22,607 nt of DNA from a virus, in IMG/VR virus record IMGVR_UViG_3300021962_005905, positions 1 to 22,607 of that record. The stretch is one strand, 5' to 3'. The position numbers and the translations under genes were made by a program. Under the pieces are notes generated by a model. The model searched no databases and had not been told where the DNA came from. It was given only the letters and a program-made list of their open reading frames with translations. Positions 735-22,607 of the stretch are shown here, piece by piece (position 1 is the first letter of the stretch; every line of letters starts with the position of its first letter).

Positions 735-1357
735 AGGACGATCTCACTGTTTCCACCTTCGCCGATGATACCTCTAGGAAATACATTGAATGCTAGACTA
801 TAACGATCTTCTTTTGAAAGATTATCAGTTACGCTGTGATTTAAGATTGATGGAAATAGCAGTAGATCATTTACATTAGGATTTATAGCACAGTCTGTGT
901 TATAATCTGTAGGTTTATCAAAATCTATACAGAATGTATCTCTCCATAGATTGTTGTGTGTTCGTTCTTTGTGGAAACAGATAGCACCCGAAGTAGCGTT
1001 GGTCTTGAGATAGTAAACTCCGCTGATCATGCTATTACTATGCCAATGGCTGGTATGATAACCTCCAGGCATAGATTTGTTTAACCAGCTGGTAGTTATT
1101 AACCATTGTTGCTTTCTAGAAACGCCTAGAACATCATAGACATATTCATCAACTTTTTCTTGTATCTGCTTTTTTAATCCGGCAAACTGAGGTTGATCTA
1201 AGAAATGACGTTTGGGTGTTTCTAAGTGTGTGGGTGCCGAATCGTCAAAGTGGCTAAACTCCGAATTTATCAATATCTTTTCTACGATAGGATCTGGTCC
1301 TTTGATAGCCGTGTGATATACCGGAATTGGAAATAGATTGTGCATCTGATAGGTCAT
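731..1357 (-). CDS. 2OG-Fe(II) oxygenase-like protein, copy 2
   Basis: This 208-residue protein has the same architecture as its neighbour at 90-734. It shows an HWHSN block (H104, H106) followed by SGVYYL, a LLLFPS segment with H174 in NHSV, and R185 in RYSLAFNVFPRG. The start chosen is the ATG at 1357, which overlaps the stop of the DUF454-like gene as ATGA; a GTG at 1366 would add three residues but lacks that coupling. The shared SLAFNVFPRG end shows the two copies arose by duplication, though the N-terminal halves have diverged strongly. Family membership is judged by eye; enzymatic activity and substrate are not established. Confidence 0.65.
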   Translation of the reverse strand: MTYQMHNLFPIPVYHTAIKGPDPIVEKILINSEFSHFDDSAPTHLETPKRHFLDQPQFAGLKKQIQEKVDEYVYDVLGVSRKQQWLITTSWLNKSMPGGYHTSHWHSNSMISGVYYLKTNATSGAICFHKERTHNNLWRDTFCIDFDKPTDYNTDCAINPNVNDLLLFPSILNHSVTDNLSKEDRYSLAFNVFPRGIIGEGGNSEIVL

Positions 1358-1764
1358 TTTAACCACCCTATCTTTTCACCAGCGACTTTTCTACGGTCAT
1401 GTTCCTCTACTGAATTAGGGAATCTCCAAGCCCATATCGCTACTAATGCCATGAATACTGCTGTACTGATAATGCCTATAGGTTTCACTCCGCTGACGGT
1501 CATGATGATTAAACTGGTGCTCATCATTGCCAGCATAAAGTATTTCATCTTTTGCGGAAATACCCGTTTGGTATTCCAGTTGGTCAAGAATGGACCAAAC
1601 AGTTTATGATTATAGATCCAACGATGCATGCGTTCGCTGCCTTTGCTGAAACAGTAGGCTGCGAATACCACAAACGGGCTATAAGGGATGCCAGGAGTGA
1701 CAACTCCTATGTAGGCCATTCCTAGGCTAAGGAAGCCTAATATATTCCAAAACAATTTTTTCAT
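1354..1764 (-). CDS. DUF454 (YbaN-like) inner-membrane protein
   Basis: This 136-residue protein matches the DUF454/YbaN pattern. A hydrophobic N-terminal segment (about 5-25) is followed by a TPGIPYSPFVVFAAYCFSKG block resembling the family's LP-x-TPF...CFarsS signature. Next come an amphipathic stretch with a HRWIYNHKLFGPF motif and two further membrane segments (about 74-92 and 96-116). The C-terminus is short and charged. Bacterial members are small inner-membrane proteins of poorly defined role. The ATG overlaps the stop of the PAAR-like gene (TAATG), and its own stop overlaps the next start (ATGA), so it sits inside a coupled operon. It is probably host-derived and may alter the envelope during infection; that role is a guess. 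Confidence 0.7.
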   Translation of the reverse strand: MKKLFWNILGFLSLGMAYIGVVTPGIPYSPFVVFAAYCFSKGSERMHRWIYNHKLFGPFLTNWNTKRVFPQKMKYFMLAMMSTSLIIMTVSGVKPIGIISTAVFMALVAIWAWRFPNSVEEHDRRKVAGEKIGWLK

Positions 1765-11690: not shown

Positions 11691-12011
11691 TTACAGTCCA
11701 AAGAACTTGAGTATCAACGGAAGTGATAAATTTCCACTCCATCCTAGTCCTGCTACGAACGCTGCTCCTATAGCACCATAGAGCATCATCTTATCTTTGC
11801 TCTTTTCTACTGCGGCTACTTTACCTGCGAGTTCGTTGTGTTGAGCTGTCGATTCTGATCTCATCACAGCCAGTGTTTCAGTGAGTGTATCTCTGGTGCG
11901 ATCTAGACAATCATGCATGTCTTTTACATCAACTTTTAAGTGATCAATCTTTTCATCTATGTGCTGTACCTTAGTTTCAAGCACACCTACTCGTTCTGCT
12001 ACTGCGGCCAT
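11691..12011 (-). CDS. coiled-coil protein with C-terminal membrane anchor (XhlA-like)
   Basis: This protein has 106 residues from the ATG at 12011, which has AGGAGA about 9 nt upstream; an in-frame upstream ATG at 12056 lacks such a site. Residues 1-75 form a long heptad coiled coil (VGVLETKVQHIDEKIDHLKV and onward), and residues about 78-100 form one hydrophobic segment (MLYGAIGAAFVAGLGW). This layout matches hemolysin XhlA-type phage proteins, which work with holins, but it also fits other small tail-anchored proteins. It has its own late-promoter-like motif (12097-12104) and terminator, so it forms a one-gene unit. No lysozyme gene is visible nearby. Confidence 0.7.
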   Translation of the reverse strand: MAAVAERVGVLETKVQHIDEKIDHLKVDVKDMHDCLDRTRDTLTETLAVMRSESTAQHNELAGKVAAVEKSKDKMMLYGAIGAAFVAGLGWSGNLSLPLILKFFGL

Positions 12012-12096
12012 TTTAGGCTGTCTCCTGTATGTTAAGTCAAGGTCCGCTCCGGACATGTGCCTAAGTTAGAAAGCCTAATTGTTTGCCTGTATCTAG

Positions 12097-19115: not shown

Positions 19116-19550
19116 TTAGTTACACCATGTTTGTTTAGCATCGCCAAAGTATTCGCGAGCAAATCCGTTACGGATTAATTCGGCACGTAGACTAACACCA
19201 TTTAGAATGATGTCTCCCAATACACGACCACCAAACTTATCCCATCCATAGAGAACGACCTGATGTTTTTGTGTAGTTGCAACTGCATTCTTAGTAAAGG
19301 CTGACGCGGCTTGTCCTCGCTGATCTTCAGAAGGGCATTGGGCTCTGTGTCCTTTTTCTGGGGTATCAACTCCAAATATTCTGATCGCAAGTTCCGGTTT
19401 AAGGGGTGCTGGTAGAAAGGGAGCTGCGATCACCACCGTATCGCCATCGCTTACGCGAAGAATTTTAGCATCGTAGGTTACACCTTGTGGTGTTTTCTGT
19501 GCGAATGCTAGCATAGGCACAGCAAGTAATAATAGTAGTAGTTTTTTCAT
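19116..19550 (-). CDS. secreted staphylococcal nuclease-like protein (SNase)
   Basis: This 144-residue protein has a signal peptide (KKLLLLLLAVPMLAFA, likely cut after residue 17) followed by a complete thermonuclease domain. Aligned to Staphylococcus nuclease, the calcium and catalytic residues are all present: D37 (SDGDT), R57, D62 and T63 (FGVDTPE), E65, and R109 (FGGRVLG). The typical GFAREY end follows. It hydrolyses DNA or RNA, using Ca2+ in the family. The signal peptide sends it to the periplasm or medium. C72 and C143 could form a disulfide. A perfect TATAAATA precedes it, so it is a late gene. Roles could include degrading extracellular or superinfecting DNA, or nutrient scavenging. 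Confidence 0.9.
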   Translation of the reverse strand: MKKLLLLLLAVPMLAFAQKTPQGVTYDAKILRVSDGDTVVIAAPFLPAPLKPELAIRIFGVDTPEKGHRAQCPSEDQRGQAASAFTKNAVATTQKHQVVLYGWDKFGGRVLGDIILNGVSLRAELIRNGFAREYFGDAKQTWCN

Positions 19551-19574: not shown

Positions 19575-19582
19575 TATTTATA
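19575..19582 (-). promoter_or_regulatory. T4-type late promoter motif TATAAATA
   Basis: The minus strand has a perfect TATAAATA followed by TAG, 25 nt before the nuclease ATG at 19550. The TAA stop of the upstream 207-residue gene is part of the octamer. Confidence 0.7.
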
Positions 19583-20201
19583 CACTCTTTTCAGTGTACT
19601 CGGCCTTTTTCCAACCTAGTAGATATTCTGCTTTCCAATGGTTTTGATCAAATCCTGTATAGTTTCGCCATTGGTCTCGCTGGTTCCATATCCTACGAGC
19701 AGCATCGTGCCAGTCTGTATGTCGCACAACCCATTCAAAGTTTATCAATCTATTTTTAAAATGTTCGTAATCGTAGTTGTCATACTCAACATGGAGGACT
19801 TCGTAGACAGTGCCGTCATTTGCTATCGCATCTAAAGCAAAATCAAACCCCCATTTTCTGCGAGTCCTTAATAATAGATCTGCTGTAGGTATTGTGGATT
19901 TAAGTTGTCGTAGTTGCTGTTCTGCTTCCTTCTCATAGCTACATCGACATAAGAATAGACTATGATCAAGTATTAGATCTTTTACTGAATCTTCTAAGGT
20001 AAACCAAGGTTCCTGCCAACAGGTATGATTAAGCACAGGATAGTCGATGGGGAAATTCATAGCAGCATAGAACTTTTGCTCTGCTAGATTTAATTCAAAT
20101 CCATCTTTGTCATAGTACTGAAAATCTGTAGTTTCTAAATCTTCAACTTGTTTGTTACAAGATGGATTTGACATCAAAGTTATTTGATGCCTGTGAAACA
20201 T
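19578..20201 (-). CDS. unrecognised Trp/Tyr/Asp-rich protein
   Basis: This protein has 207 residues from the ATG at 20201, which begins one base after the Cys-rich gene's stop; longer upstream starts would run through that gene in another frame. The product is soluble, rich in aromatic and acidic residues. Its C-terminal half carries a conspicuous block: LHVEYDNYDYEHFKNRLINF, then a VRHTDWHDAARRIWNQR segment and an HWKAEYLLGWKKAEY end. I recall similar hypothetical proteins in aquatic T4-like phages, without a function. A metal-binding role is possible given the Asp/His content but not shown. It is the last gene of the lipase chain. Confidence 0.65.
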   Translation of the reverse strand: MFHRHQITLMSNPSCNKQVEDLETTDFQYYDKDGFELNLAEQKFYAAMNFPIDYPVLNHTCWQEPWFTLEDSVKDLILDHSLFLCRCSYEKEAEQQLRQLKSTIPTADLLLRTRRKWGFDFALDAIANDGTVYEVLHVEYDNYDYEHFKNRLINFEWVVRHTDWHDAARRIWNQRDQWRNYTGFDQNHWKAEYLLGWKKAEYTEKSV

Positions 20202-20202
20202 T

Positions 20203-20361
20203 TTACTTCTCTGCTTCAGATAGACAAATAGGACAATGACACTCGTTGCAGTCACAGCCCGATTCCATACAACTATTCCCACAGTGTTTGGGATGCCAAC
20301 ATTTACATTGTGGAACTAATTTCTGATATGCTTCGTTGTCGTCGATATAGTTTTCCATCAT
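20203..20361 (-). CDS. 52-residue cysteine-rich microprotein, probable metal binder
   Basis: This 52-residue frame runs from ATGATG at 20361 to TAA at 20203. Nine of its residues are Cys, at 19, 21, 27, 31, 36, 38, 41, 43 and 46, and H23, H26 and H42 are also present. The sequence CKCWHPKHC...CDCNECHCPIC resembles metallothionein or zinc-knuckle patterns, so it probably binds several zinc, copper or iron ions. The N-terminal 18 residues are acidic and uncharged-polar. GGAG precedes the start, which overlaps the stop of the holin-like gene. The next ATG follows one base after this stop. No family was recognised; this should be checked for structure. Confidence 0.75.
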   Translation of the reverse strand: MMENYIDDNEAYQKLVPQCKCWHPKHCGNSCMESGCDCNECHCPICLSEAEK

Positions 20362-20576
20362 TCGCTCCTATCATCTTTCTTGTCCGGCTTTCCTGCTAGA
20401 TATCCCGCTATGATACCTACTACGCCAGTGATAGCCATCTTTAATAATTCTATAACACCTTCGTCTGGTGCTCGGCCCGCTCTAAGTGCTGTAGAAAAAT
20501 CAGCCACTACGATGAATACTAGGAGGAAAATTACTCCTCCTGTTAGTATCATAACAACTTTATCCCTGGGTGTCAT
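20358..20576 (-). CDS. two-TM holin-like membrane protein
   Basis: This 72-residue protein has two hydrophobic helices: about 8-27 (VMILTGGVIFLLVFIVVADF) and about 46-62 (MAITGVVGIIAGYLAG), separated by a short charged loop (RAGRAPDEG). The C-terminus is short and strongly charged (KPDKKDDRSE). Length, topology and tail match class II holins and similar small phage membrane proteins. There is no endolysin in the window to confirm a lysis role. The ATG overlaps the stop of the upstream repeat protein gene (ATGA), and the stop overlaps the start of the Cys-rich gene, so it is translated in a chain with both. Confidence 0.65.
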   Translation of the reverse strand: MTPRDKVVMILTGGVIFLLVFIVVADFSTALRAGRAPDEGVIELLKMAITGVVGIIAGYLAGKPDKKDDRSE

Positions 20577-21364
20577 TGTACTGCTTTTGTTAGCCCTTTT
20601 GGTGCGGTCTTATCACAAATCAATTGTGCAACGATAGGGCTAATAACTGATCCGATGAAGATGCCGACACCGGCAGGGGTAGCTAAACTAGCAGTCAATA
20701 CTGTTGGGTTGCAAGTGGCAACCGCATTAACAATAACGGTATTCAAAAGTTTTTCATCGCAATTACCTTTAACACCCGGAATCAATAGAATTGACTTAGT
20801 GATAATACCGCCAACTTCTTTTGCCATTAAAGCATTACTTCCCTTTTTAACCATGTAAGAAACAAACGCTGTGCTGATAGCAGTAGAAGTTACAGTTCCC
20901 GGTTCAGCAGGTTCGGGTTTTGGTGTAAAGTATAAAACACAACCAGTGGTCAATGCCGCATTCAAACCGATGTGACAAGCATTAGCGTCAGCCCACTTAT
21001 ATGCTTCCATTGCGCCATACTCGACATACTCAACACCCTCTGAGGCATACTTGACAACTTGTGATGATCCTTCTTTCCATACATCGCTAGCAACATCAAA
21101 CCCTTGCTTCGCATATTCTTCTGTATTCTTTGCGACAACAGAAGCAGTATGTTCAACTGCTTTGGCTGTATCATTTGCCAAACTGACTGCGAAATCTTTT
21201 GTTGCGTTGTATGCGGCGGTAGCAGTTGAAGTAACTGCATTAACTACTGTGTTTGTAGTGTTTACAACAGTATTGACAACAGCGTTTGTTGCTGATGATA
21301 CGCCACTAGCAATAGAATTTCCTACACTTGTCCAGCTGCTTTTCTTAAATGGATTCCATCCCAT
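20573..21364 (-). CDS. LEA-like amphipathic repeat protein with hydrophobic C-terminal domain
   Basis: This 263-residue protein has two parts. Residues 10-130 are a long amphipathic stretch of roughly 11-residue repeats with Ala, Thr, Asn and Lys (ATNAVVNTVVNTT, then AAYNATKDFAVSLANDTAKA), as in LEA or apolipoprotein-like helices that lie on membranes. Residues 131-255 are mostly hydrophobic, with a Cys-containing ACHIGLNAALTTGCVLYF block and a Gly-rich segment (GVGIFIGSVISPIVAQLICD). I associate such proteins, by eye, with lipase neighbours in some bacteria. The ribosome site AAAGGAGAA lies inside the lipase gene's end, so the two are co-translated. A membrane-targeting or pore-forming partner of the lipase is plausible. 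Confidence 0.65.
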   Translation of the reverse strand: MGWNPFKKSSWTSVGNSIASGVSSATNAVVNTVVNTTNTVVNAVTSTATAAYNATKDFAVSLANDTAKAVEHTASVVAKNTEEYAKQGFDVASDVWKEGSSQVVKYASEGVEYVEYGAMEAYKWADANACHIGLNAALTTGCVLYFTPKPEPAEPGTVTSTAISTAFVSYMVKKGSNALMAKEVGGIITKSILLIPGVKGNCDEKLLNTVIVNAVATCNPTVLTASLATPAGVGIFIGSVISPIVAQLICDKTAPKGLTKAVQ

Positions 21365-21365
21365 A

Positions 21366-22082
21366 TTATTCTCCTTTGTTTAGTTTAGCAATGTAATTAT
21401 TCATAAGATGATCGAATACACCTATGAACTTTTCGCCTTTCATTCGTGCTCTGAGTCGGCTTCTTAACATATCTTTGACCATCTGCCAGCCTGTGAAATC
21501 TCTAAAATCTCCATGAAAGTTCATATATCTATGATTGCCATGATGTCGGAATCCCATCAAAATAAATGGAACTTTAGTGACATCATCGCAGTTGTTTTGA
21601 ACTCGATGGTGTGTGACTTTGAGACTGTTTACAAATGCTCTAGTACCTACTCTAGGTGAACCAAAAGTCACTAGAGTTAAAACTTTATCCTGTATCCTGC
21701 TGGCAGCGATAGTGGCCATAGCAGCGCCTAGGCTGTGACCAGTGACGTGAACTTTTTCTATATTAGCCAATGCTTTTTCTATCAAAGGCCATAGTTTGTC
21801 TAGTTCTTTCTTAAAACCGTGATGTACCTTCCCACCAGATGCTTCTAGGTTTTTACCGGCTTCTAAGTCTGCTAGGATATCACTTTTTTCAGTGACTTCA
21901 GTTCCTCGAAAGCTCAACACATGATGATCTGTACCTTTTAACAAATAACCTTGGGCGCCTTTGACATCAAAGAACTCTATGATATCATATCCTTGATCTT
22001 TAAACTTCTTTTTTGATTCTTTGGGATTATCGTAGGTTATAGCTGCAACATGAGCAAACTTTAATAATTCTTTTCTTTCCAT
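21366..22082 (-). CDS. class 3 lipase
   Basis: This 238-residue protein shows the class 3 (Lipase_3) alpha/beta-hydrolase features. The oxyanion strand reads LSFRGTE (56-62). The nucleophile elbow GHSLGA has S117, the likely acid is D167 (CDDVTKVPF), and the likely histidine is H225 (VFDHLMNNY). These enzymes cleave triacylglycerols or phospholipids. There is no signal peptide or membrane helix, so it is probably cytoplasmic, released at lysis, or packaged. AAGGAG precedes the ATG at a good distance. It is followed one base after its stop by the repeat protein and holin-like gene, suggesting action on the host envelope. Phage class 3 lipases are uncommon. Confidence 0.88.
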   Translation of the reverse strand: MERKELLKFAHVAAITYDNPKESKKKFKDQGYDIIEFFDVKGAQGYLLKGTDHHVLSFRGTEVTEKSDILADLEAGKNLEASGGKVHHGFKKELDKLWPLIEKALANIEKVHVTGHSLGAAMATIAASRIQDKVLTLVTFGSPRVGTRAFVNSLKVTHHRVQNNCDDVTKVPFILMGFRHHGNHRYMNFHGDFRDFTGWQMVKDMLRSRLRARMKGEKFIGVFDHLMNNYIAKLNKGE

Positions 22083-22092
22083 TTAGTACTCC

Positions 22093-22515
22093 TTATTCGG
22101 TTCGATCCTTGTCATCAATGGCGCCGCCACTAACCCACGCAGAACACGATCGTGTGCCGGCACATTTAAAATGTAAAAAGTTACAGTAACCTAAATCTGC
22201 TTTGTGTATCGTAGCCATAGCATCAGTTTTTTTCTCATCGCCTTTGATACCCGCCTCGATACACGACCACATCTTATCACTAACATCAAAAGCCGCACAG
22301 TTAGAACACTTCATGGTCTTGGCAGTCTTCTCTGAGATCTTCCAACGCTTGGCCGCTTCCTTCCAATATGATTCTGGTTCATCTGGATTGGCAGGACCGT
22401 AGTGATATTCGTCTATGGCCTTTTGTCTATTCTTTAGATTAACATCTATGTCGTATGTAGCGATGGGACAGCCTTTGTTAGCTGCTTCTACGATGTTGAT
22501 ATATTTTCTATACAT
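22093..22515 (-). CDS. Cys-rich conserved phage protein, possible metal or Fe-S binder
   Basis: This 140-residue protein carries six Cys in its second half: CSNCAAFD (CxxC), then WSCIEAG, DLGYCNF, HFKCAGTRSC and SAWVSGG. Spacing of the first four recalls high-potential iron-sulfur or zinc-ribbon-like proteins (C-x2-C...C...GYC), but this is only a resemblance. A separate Cys is near the N-terminus. The opening MYRKYINIVE has an (I)-x-E site after residue 10, similar to capsid-targeting sequences. It starts 2 nt after the stop of the gene upstream. Similar proteins occur in T4-like cyanophages, from memory. The function is unknown. Confidence 0.65.
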   Translation of the reverse strand: MYRKYINIVEAANKGCPIATYDIDVNLKNRQKAIDEYHYGPANPDEPESYWKEAAKRWKISEKTAKTMKCSNCAAFDVSDKMWSCIEAGIKGDEKKTDAMATIHKADLGYCNFLHFKCAGTRSCSAWVSGGAIDDKDRTE

Positions 22516-22517
22516 GT

Positions 22518-22607
22518 TTATCTCTGTTCAATCCAAGTCATTGCGGCCAGTGCGTCTTTGCCAGTGTTGGGGCTGGCTATGGCCAATGTTAGCGTGTCGC
22601 TGACTGT
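22518..22607 (-). CDS. C-terminal end of an unidentified gene (partial)
   Basis: An open frame enters from the right window edge and ends at TAA (22518-22520). The visible 29 residues end AAMTWIEQR. The next gene's ATG follows 2 nt later, supporting a real, coupled upstream gene. Too little is seen to name it. Confidence 0.6.
   Translation of the reverse strand, partial: TVSDTLTLAIASPNTGKDALAAMTWIEQR

Follow-up and report, generated by a model that had tools for sequence, protein, structure and literature searches.

Three adjoining genes near the right end of a viral record, coding for a class 3 lipase (gene B), an amphipathic repeat protein (gene C) and a two-transmembrane (TM) protein (gene D), may well form an accessory lysis (envelope-disruption) module that a large T4-like phage carries in addition to the standard set, as judged from sequence comparisons. 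The stretch analysed, hereafter the window, is the whole 22,607-base record (G000), a 22.6 kb fragment with T4-like features (ribonucleotide reductase-like genes, read from the translations, a 2OG-Fe(II) oxygenase, an exonuclease, a tail spike and a PAAR-like protein). At its right end, genes A to F form a minus-strand run from 22515 to 19578 (Table 1), in which A and B are separated by 10 nt, B and C by 1 nt, and E and F by 1 nt, while C and D, and likewise D and E, overlap by 4 nt. A first-pass annotation had described this tightly spaced run of six open reading frames, and all of its positions were recovered, with gaps from -4 to +10 nt; gene F likely begins at the ATG at 20201 rather than at a GTG upstream of it. 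The order B-C-D-E-F is kept in four further records (L003, L004, L006 and L007), with B, D and F 68-75% identical, so the arrangement is not due to chance; L002, a near-identical record, was left out of the independent counts. Genes A, E, F and the nuclease gene G also occur together in L057, and A is separable from the lipase.

Table 1. Coordinates of the cluster genes and of associated features in the window and in related records
Feature	Position	Strand	Description
Gene A	22093..22515	-	140 aa, no assigned role, Cys-containing
Gene B	21366..22082	-	238-aa class 3 lipase
Gene C	20573..21364	-	263 aa, 11-residue amphipathic repeats, hydrophobic C-terminal part
Gene D	20358..20576	-	72-aa two-TM protein
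Gene E	20203..20361	-	52-aa Cys-rich microprotein
Gene F	19578..20201	-	207 aa, no assigned role
Gene G	19116..19550	-	144-aa SNase-like nuclease; PF00565 E 5.6e-11; N-terminal hydrophobic signal-like segment
TATAAATA	19575..19582	-	T4-type late-promoter-like octamer before nuclease gene G
TATAAATA in relatives	L138:14523; L057:2538		Homologous place before SNase-like gene
Nucleases near lipase or C	window 19116-19550; L058, L063, L091, L057; L112, L036, L135
CxxC..HC small proteins	window 20203-20361; L025:2635-2793; L029:3194-3346; L179:5520-5642; L181:7478-7630; L187:5324-5449
D-Ala-D-Ala endopeptidase-like gene	L154:14827-15528; L142:7567-8277		In G002 (L154), near lipase; in G012 (L142), convergent to lipase run
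Coiled-coil TM protein	window 11691-12056		121 aa, XhlA-like layout
DUF454 membrane protein	window 1354-1764		PF04304, E 2e-30

The class 3 lipase identity proposed for B is borne out by Pfam, where the protein scores above the gathering cut-off of PF01764 (Lipase_3; 71.6 bits vs 22; E 7.8e-20). B contains the motif GHSLG, a GxSxG nucleophile elbow, and Ser117, Asp166 and His225 are invariant in 17 aligned homologues that are 35-77% identical to the window protein; by their position, these residues are assigned as the putative catalytic triad. The AlphaFold2 model (pLDDT 85, pTM 0.86) predicts an alpha/beta-hydrolase fold, although a region at about residues 61-80, where a lid would be expected, is poorly modelled, and the top 25 PDB matches to the model are class 3 lipases and their relatives, the best being fungal class 3 lipases and a feruloyl esterase. 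With the enzymes of this family (Rhizomucor, Rhizopus and Thermomyces lipases, Aspergillus feruloyl esterase, plant phospholipase A1) B shares the GHSLG motif and the Ser/Asp/His residues, and its predicted fold superposes on their structures with a TM-score of about 0.6-0.7. Unlike them, B lacks a secretion signal and is encoded by a phage beside membrane proteins. A basic helix of the lipase (residues 198-215) was considered as a membrane-binding amphipathic helix and rejected, since 41% of shuffled sequences reach its moment.

The amphipathic repeats and hydrophobic part attributed to C in the first-pass annotation are likewise confirmed, in that an 11-residue period is found over 21 homologues: identity at lag 11 is 25%, vs 7.8% at other lags, and the autocorrelation of hydrophobicity peaks at lags 11 and 22. 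The protein begins with a conserved MGWNPFKK, its N-terminal half contains the amphipathic 11-mer helix, and its C-terminal half is hydrophobic. The 11-residue period and amphipathic helix are common to C and the LEA/apolipoprotein-type 11-mer proteins, but C differs from LEA proteins in its hydrophobic C-terminal half, in its MGWNPFKK start, in being confined to phages within the collections searched, and in matching no LEA family in Pfam up to an E-value of 1. Indeed, C belongs to no family in Pfam or PHROGs and has no relative in the cultured-phage collection or in 85,000 prokaryote (bacterial and archaeal) genomes, so no host origin was found; within the collections searched, it occurs in viral contigs only. 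The structure prediction for C is of low confidence (pLDDT 51), and the fold search was uninformative. C matched tape-measure and baseplate profiles weakly (E 0.0025-0.006), and its identification as a tape-measure protein or a phasin was rejected, as the matches are only low-complexity or sub-threshold.

Gene D encodes 72 residues with hydropathy segments at positions 7-25 and 40-58, in agreement with its earlier description as a two-TM protein, and has the size and topology of a holin. It matches no holin family in Pfam, and its only PHROG match (phrog_2720) has no function assigned there. A D homologue follows chitinase (GH19) and PF05105 holin genes in the cultured Flavobacterium phage immuto, and another is separated by about 1.3 kb from M15 peptidase genes in pelagiphage Greip. 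Gene E is, as annotated, a Cys-rich microprotein (a 52-mer), and short proteins that are rich in Cys and bear a CxxC..HC pattern turn up repeatedly close to the lipase or C, in settings that are unrelated (Table 1).

Lipase loci were collected in three scans of viral contigs and reduced to 48 clusters at 92% identity. The link to lysis suggested in the first-pass annotation is supported by these data, in which B, C and D each have relatives in lysis cassettes. In G005, a one-strand run comprises a GH19 endolysin (phrog_181, E 2e-75), an Rz-like i-spanin, an Rz1-like o-spanin, a lipoprotein, a DUF4337 protein, the lipase, C and a GTA-type 3TM holin (phrog_3427, E 7e-8), followed on the same strand by a secreted protein and a lipoprotein; this run is repeated in G009, except that a TM coiled-coil protein replaces C. 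In L083, an i-spanin, an o-spanin (PF23793 LysC, E 2e-7) and a GH19 endolysin are followed after 1 nt by the lipase and then DUF4337, while in L043 and L044 the GH19 endolysin gene abuts that of the lipase. A C gene without a lipase closes a run of i-spanin, o-spanin, lipoprotein, small gene, GH19 endolysin and DUF4337 in L034, and L018 carries an Rz-like spanin (phrog_739, E 1e-13), the lipase and C. In L057, the order is TATAAATA, SNase, holin-like protein and lipase, with the holin-like gene, whose product is 31% identical over 96 aa to the G002 holin, directly before the lipase. The cassettes holding relatives of B and C are thus composed of GTA-type 3TM holins (PF11351), GH19 endolysins (phrog_181) and Rz/Rz1-type spanins; in contrast, the window lacks all three, and D matches none of them.

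How these genes relate to the standard set is illustrated by the relatives in which that set is complete. The first-pass annotation had envisaged a system different from the usual holin, endolysin and spanins, and this part of its proposal, if taken to mean a replacement of that set, is not supported: the standard parts are present wherever the lipase or C lies in a cassette, with the lipase and/or C being additional to the set in G005, G009, L083 and L034. The annotation had also named a complete standard cassette elsewhere as one half of what would speak against its proposal, and G015, a relative with the same lipase-D pair as the window, has such a cassette at a separate place some 14 kb from its lipase, made up of an i-spanin, an o-spanin, a lipoprotein, a small protein, a GH19 endolysin and a small TM protein. 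In the window itself, neither an endolysin nor a spanin pair was recognised by Pfam and PHROGs searches of most proteins and inspection of the rest; the endolysin of this phage may lie outside the 22.6 kb fragment. The near relative G022, an incomplete record of 44.6 kb, gave no endolysin in a search with PF00182 and PF00959, and no spanin was seen in it. Across 26 records, the T4-type lysozyme family (PF00959) matched in G006 only, in a gene with an internal stop codon.

Lysis of Gram-negative hosts is least understood at the step of outer-membrane disruption, to which spanins are the usual answer, and most endolysins are cytoplasmic products that have no signal peptide. The identities of the genes in the cluster, their coupling, their recurrence and their closeness to lysis genes in relatives are established by the comparisons above; for the timing of the B-C-D module late in infection, its delivery to the membrane, its substrate and its part in lysis, we infer the following course. 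The lipase, likewise without a signal peptide, would be made in the cytoplasm and co-translated with its membrane partners C and D. C would bind lipid surfaces via its 11-mer amphipathic helix and insert its hydrophobic part, while D would act as a two-TM, holin-like partner. Late in infection, these partners would take the lipase to the inner membrane or, alternatively, let it into the periplasm once holes have formed. There, it would break down phospholipid by hydrolysis, and the inner membrane, the outer membrane or both would yield along with the action of the standard lysis proteins (holin, endolysin and spanins). What is conserved appears to be a lipase with a membrane partner that varies by lineage, the partners including C, D, the GTA-type holin, coiled-coil TM proteins and DUF4337. 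A bolder and rather doubtful extension is that the lipase and C (with D) are a new lysis module, in which C, as a lipid-binding protein of 11-mer repeats, would bring the cytoplasmic lipase to the envelope, and by which aquatic T4-like phages would dissolve membrane lipid enzymatically, either together with the spanin-driven disruption of the outer membrane or, in some lineages, in its place.

Lipolytic enzymes in lysis cassettes are already known. LysB of mycobacteriophages such as Ms6 is a mycolyl-arabinogalactan esterase encoded in the lysis cassette (PMC5707550), and B resembles it as a lipolytic enzyme coded among lysis genes, LysB being one that removes an outer lipid layer. However, the substrate of LysB is the mycolyl-arabinogalactan of mycobacteria, while B belongs to PF01764; a place in the LysB/cutinase-related lineage is not supported, with the Pfam Cutinase match below its cut-off (14 vs 25.4 bits). 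The spanins beside relatives of B point to Gram-negative hosts. A second counterpart, as a lipase in the lysis cassette of a Gram-negative phage, comes from a phage of Pseudomonas syringae pv. actinidiae, in which the lipase gene lies upstream of the holin and endolysin; this lipase is described as homologous to one from Aeromonas hydrophila, carries a carbohydrate-binding domain, and its active site is needed for the antibacterial action of an endolysin fusion (PMC12173070). No amphipathic repeat protein is reported in that cassette, which by its description is set apart from B-C-D. Our literature search found no report of a class 3 lipase in phage lysis. The lipase family is other than that of LysB, and B comes with membrane partners and in uncultivated aquatic phages. 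The repeated co-translation of the lipase with membrane proteins, and its place within complete holin/endolysin/spanin cassettes in several lineages, suggest that many such phages also attack lipids, and make C and DUF4337-type proteins candidate new lysis factors.

The lysis association differs between the marine clusters and the others. Among the 29 non-marine clusters, a recognised endolysin, holin or spanin lies within seven genes on the same strand in 8, and either one of these or one of three accompanying families in 18. The 19 marine clusters have almost no recognised lysis gene nearby, and in almost all of them the partner of the lipase is a different TM protein (TM104); the association between lipase and lysis is thus real but not universal. 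In annotated phage genomes (P-SSM2, Cr-LKS4, XacN1 and SCTP-2), no annotated lysis gene adjoins the lipase, although in XacN1 a chitinase is encoded at a distance of about 4 kb, and these contexts therefore weigh little either way. The marine clusters would suit lipid remodelling or scavenging, in which a partner-anchored lipase would hydrolyse lipids of the host membrane during infection, freeing fatty acids or reshaping membranes, and the lysis genes would be mere neighbours. Also in keeping with this unlikely alternative, a metallophosphoesterase (PF00149, E 4e-10, distantly LpxH-like) is encoded no more than 6 kb from the lipase in 5 of the 48 clusters, often followed by a glycosyltransferase, and G022 has a similar pair. 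But the phosphoesterase falls far under the curated LpxH cut-off (42 vs 134 bits) and rarely adjoins the lipase, while in several lineages the lipase directly adjoins lysis genes, and the products of a lipase would harm membranes, not build them. The metallophosphoesterase followed by the glycosyltransferase, seen near the lipase in L057, L084, G002 (L154) and G022 (L138), is a possible phage-coded lipid-remodelling pair in its own right; that it is PlcP/Agt-like is a guess.

The survey of co-occurrence between lipase and repeat protein gave a divided answer: the B-C pair recurs in several lineages, but C stands without the lipase in about half of its 19 clusters and, in several lineages including L009, L017 and L025, without lipase or lysis genes. 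The lipase, in turn, is followed by D without C in L047, L048 and L050-L052, with an ATGA overlap. Such findings, with B, C, D and E each also present singly, and with lysis genes and the same partner both missing from many clusters, would be expected if unrelated small late genes were shuffled in a hypervariable region that also houses lysis genes. We consider this quite unlikely, as both the B-C pair and that of lipase and TM partner are found again in several lineages, spaced by 1-4 nt, and the lipase lies closer to the holin than random. The next gene downstream of the lipase encodes a TM segment in 30 of 39 clusters, vs 176 of 729 genes (24%) in the same loci (Fisher P 1e-12, an optimistic value because the clusters are related and TM segments were called by hydropathy). 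Where a record has both a 3TM holin and the lipase, the two are no more than 2.5 kb apart in four of nine (P about 7e-4 under random placement), the distance being 33-104 kb in G001, G002, G003, G006 and G007.

Gene C has been exchanged on its own between phages that are 31% divergent in the lipase and D genes on either side of it. In nucleotide identity, L003 and L007 reach 97.8% for the lipase and 97.2% for D, against 67.2% for C. The reverse is seen between the window and L003, at 69.0% for the lipase, 67.6% for D and 96.8% for C; the identity switches at the ends of the gene. Between the window and L004, C has 48 synonymous vs 6 changed codons and is therefore under purifying selection. 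Since C is exchanged singly, its sequence does not have to be matched to a particular lipase or D, and the exchange hints at a host- or conflict-related specificity. Allele exchange of this kind is typical of specificity genes, and a signal-bearing SNase is encoded close by, as would fit superinfection exclusion or another envelope conflict, with C, D and the secreted nuclease blocking incoming phage and the lipase being part of the system or neutralised. This is distinctly improbable, however, as C and D match no known exclusion protein in Pfam or PHROGs, and the repeated joining with endolysin and spanins would be left unexplained; none of the explanations fully accounts for the swap. Least probable by far is a virion or injected component, with the lipase or C carried in the particle to act on the envelope at entry. 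In its favour are the weak profile matches of C and a 531-aa protein upstream of A in G022, read as a probable tail fibre; against it, those matches reflect low-complexity helical similarity that a designed helical bundle shows too, and the PAAR-like protein encoded elsewhere in the window is 19 kb away and under the Pfam cut-off.

Beside the proposed accessory lysis module, further features accompany the lipase or C. Gene G is found near the lipase in several relatives, and nucleases with a signal-like N-terminus, of the SNase type and, by eye, a second, NUC-like type, adjoin the lipase or C in many. The octamer TATAAATA occurs three times in the window vs 1.74 expected, which is not significant, and is conserved by position only, at the homologous place before the SNase-like gene in the window and two relatives (Table 1). 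A gene whose product resembles a D-Ala-D-Ala endopeptidase (NF008668, E 9e-41, under the cut-off of that family) is present in G002 and G012. In the window, a 121-aa protein combines a coiled coil with a C-terminal TM segment; it has no Pfam match and could be part of a lysis system. Upstream of the marine lipase in L185, L200 and L187, curli-type (CsgF/CsgG/CsgA-like), FecR-like and CHASE2-like genes were noted by eye, and pelagimyophages are reported to carry curli genes (PMC7029224). DUF454-like proteins, one of which is encoded in the window, were also seen by eye near the lipase in G004 and L090.
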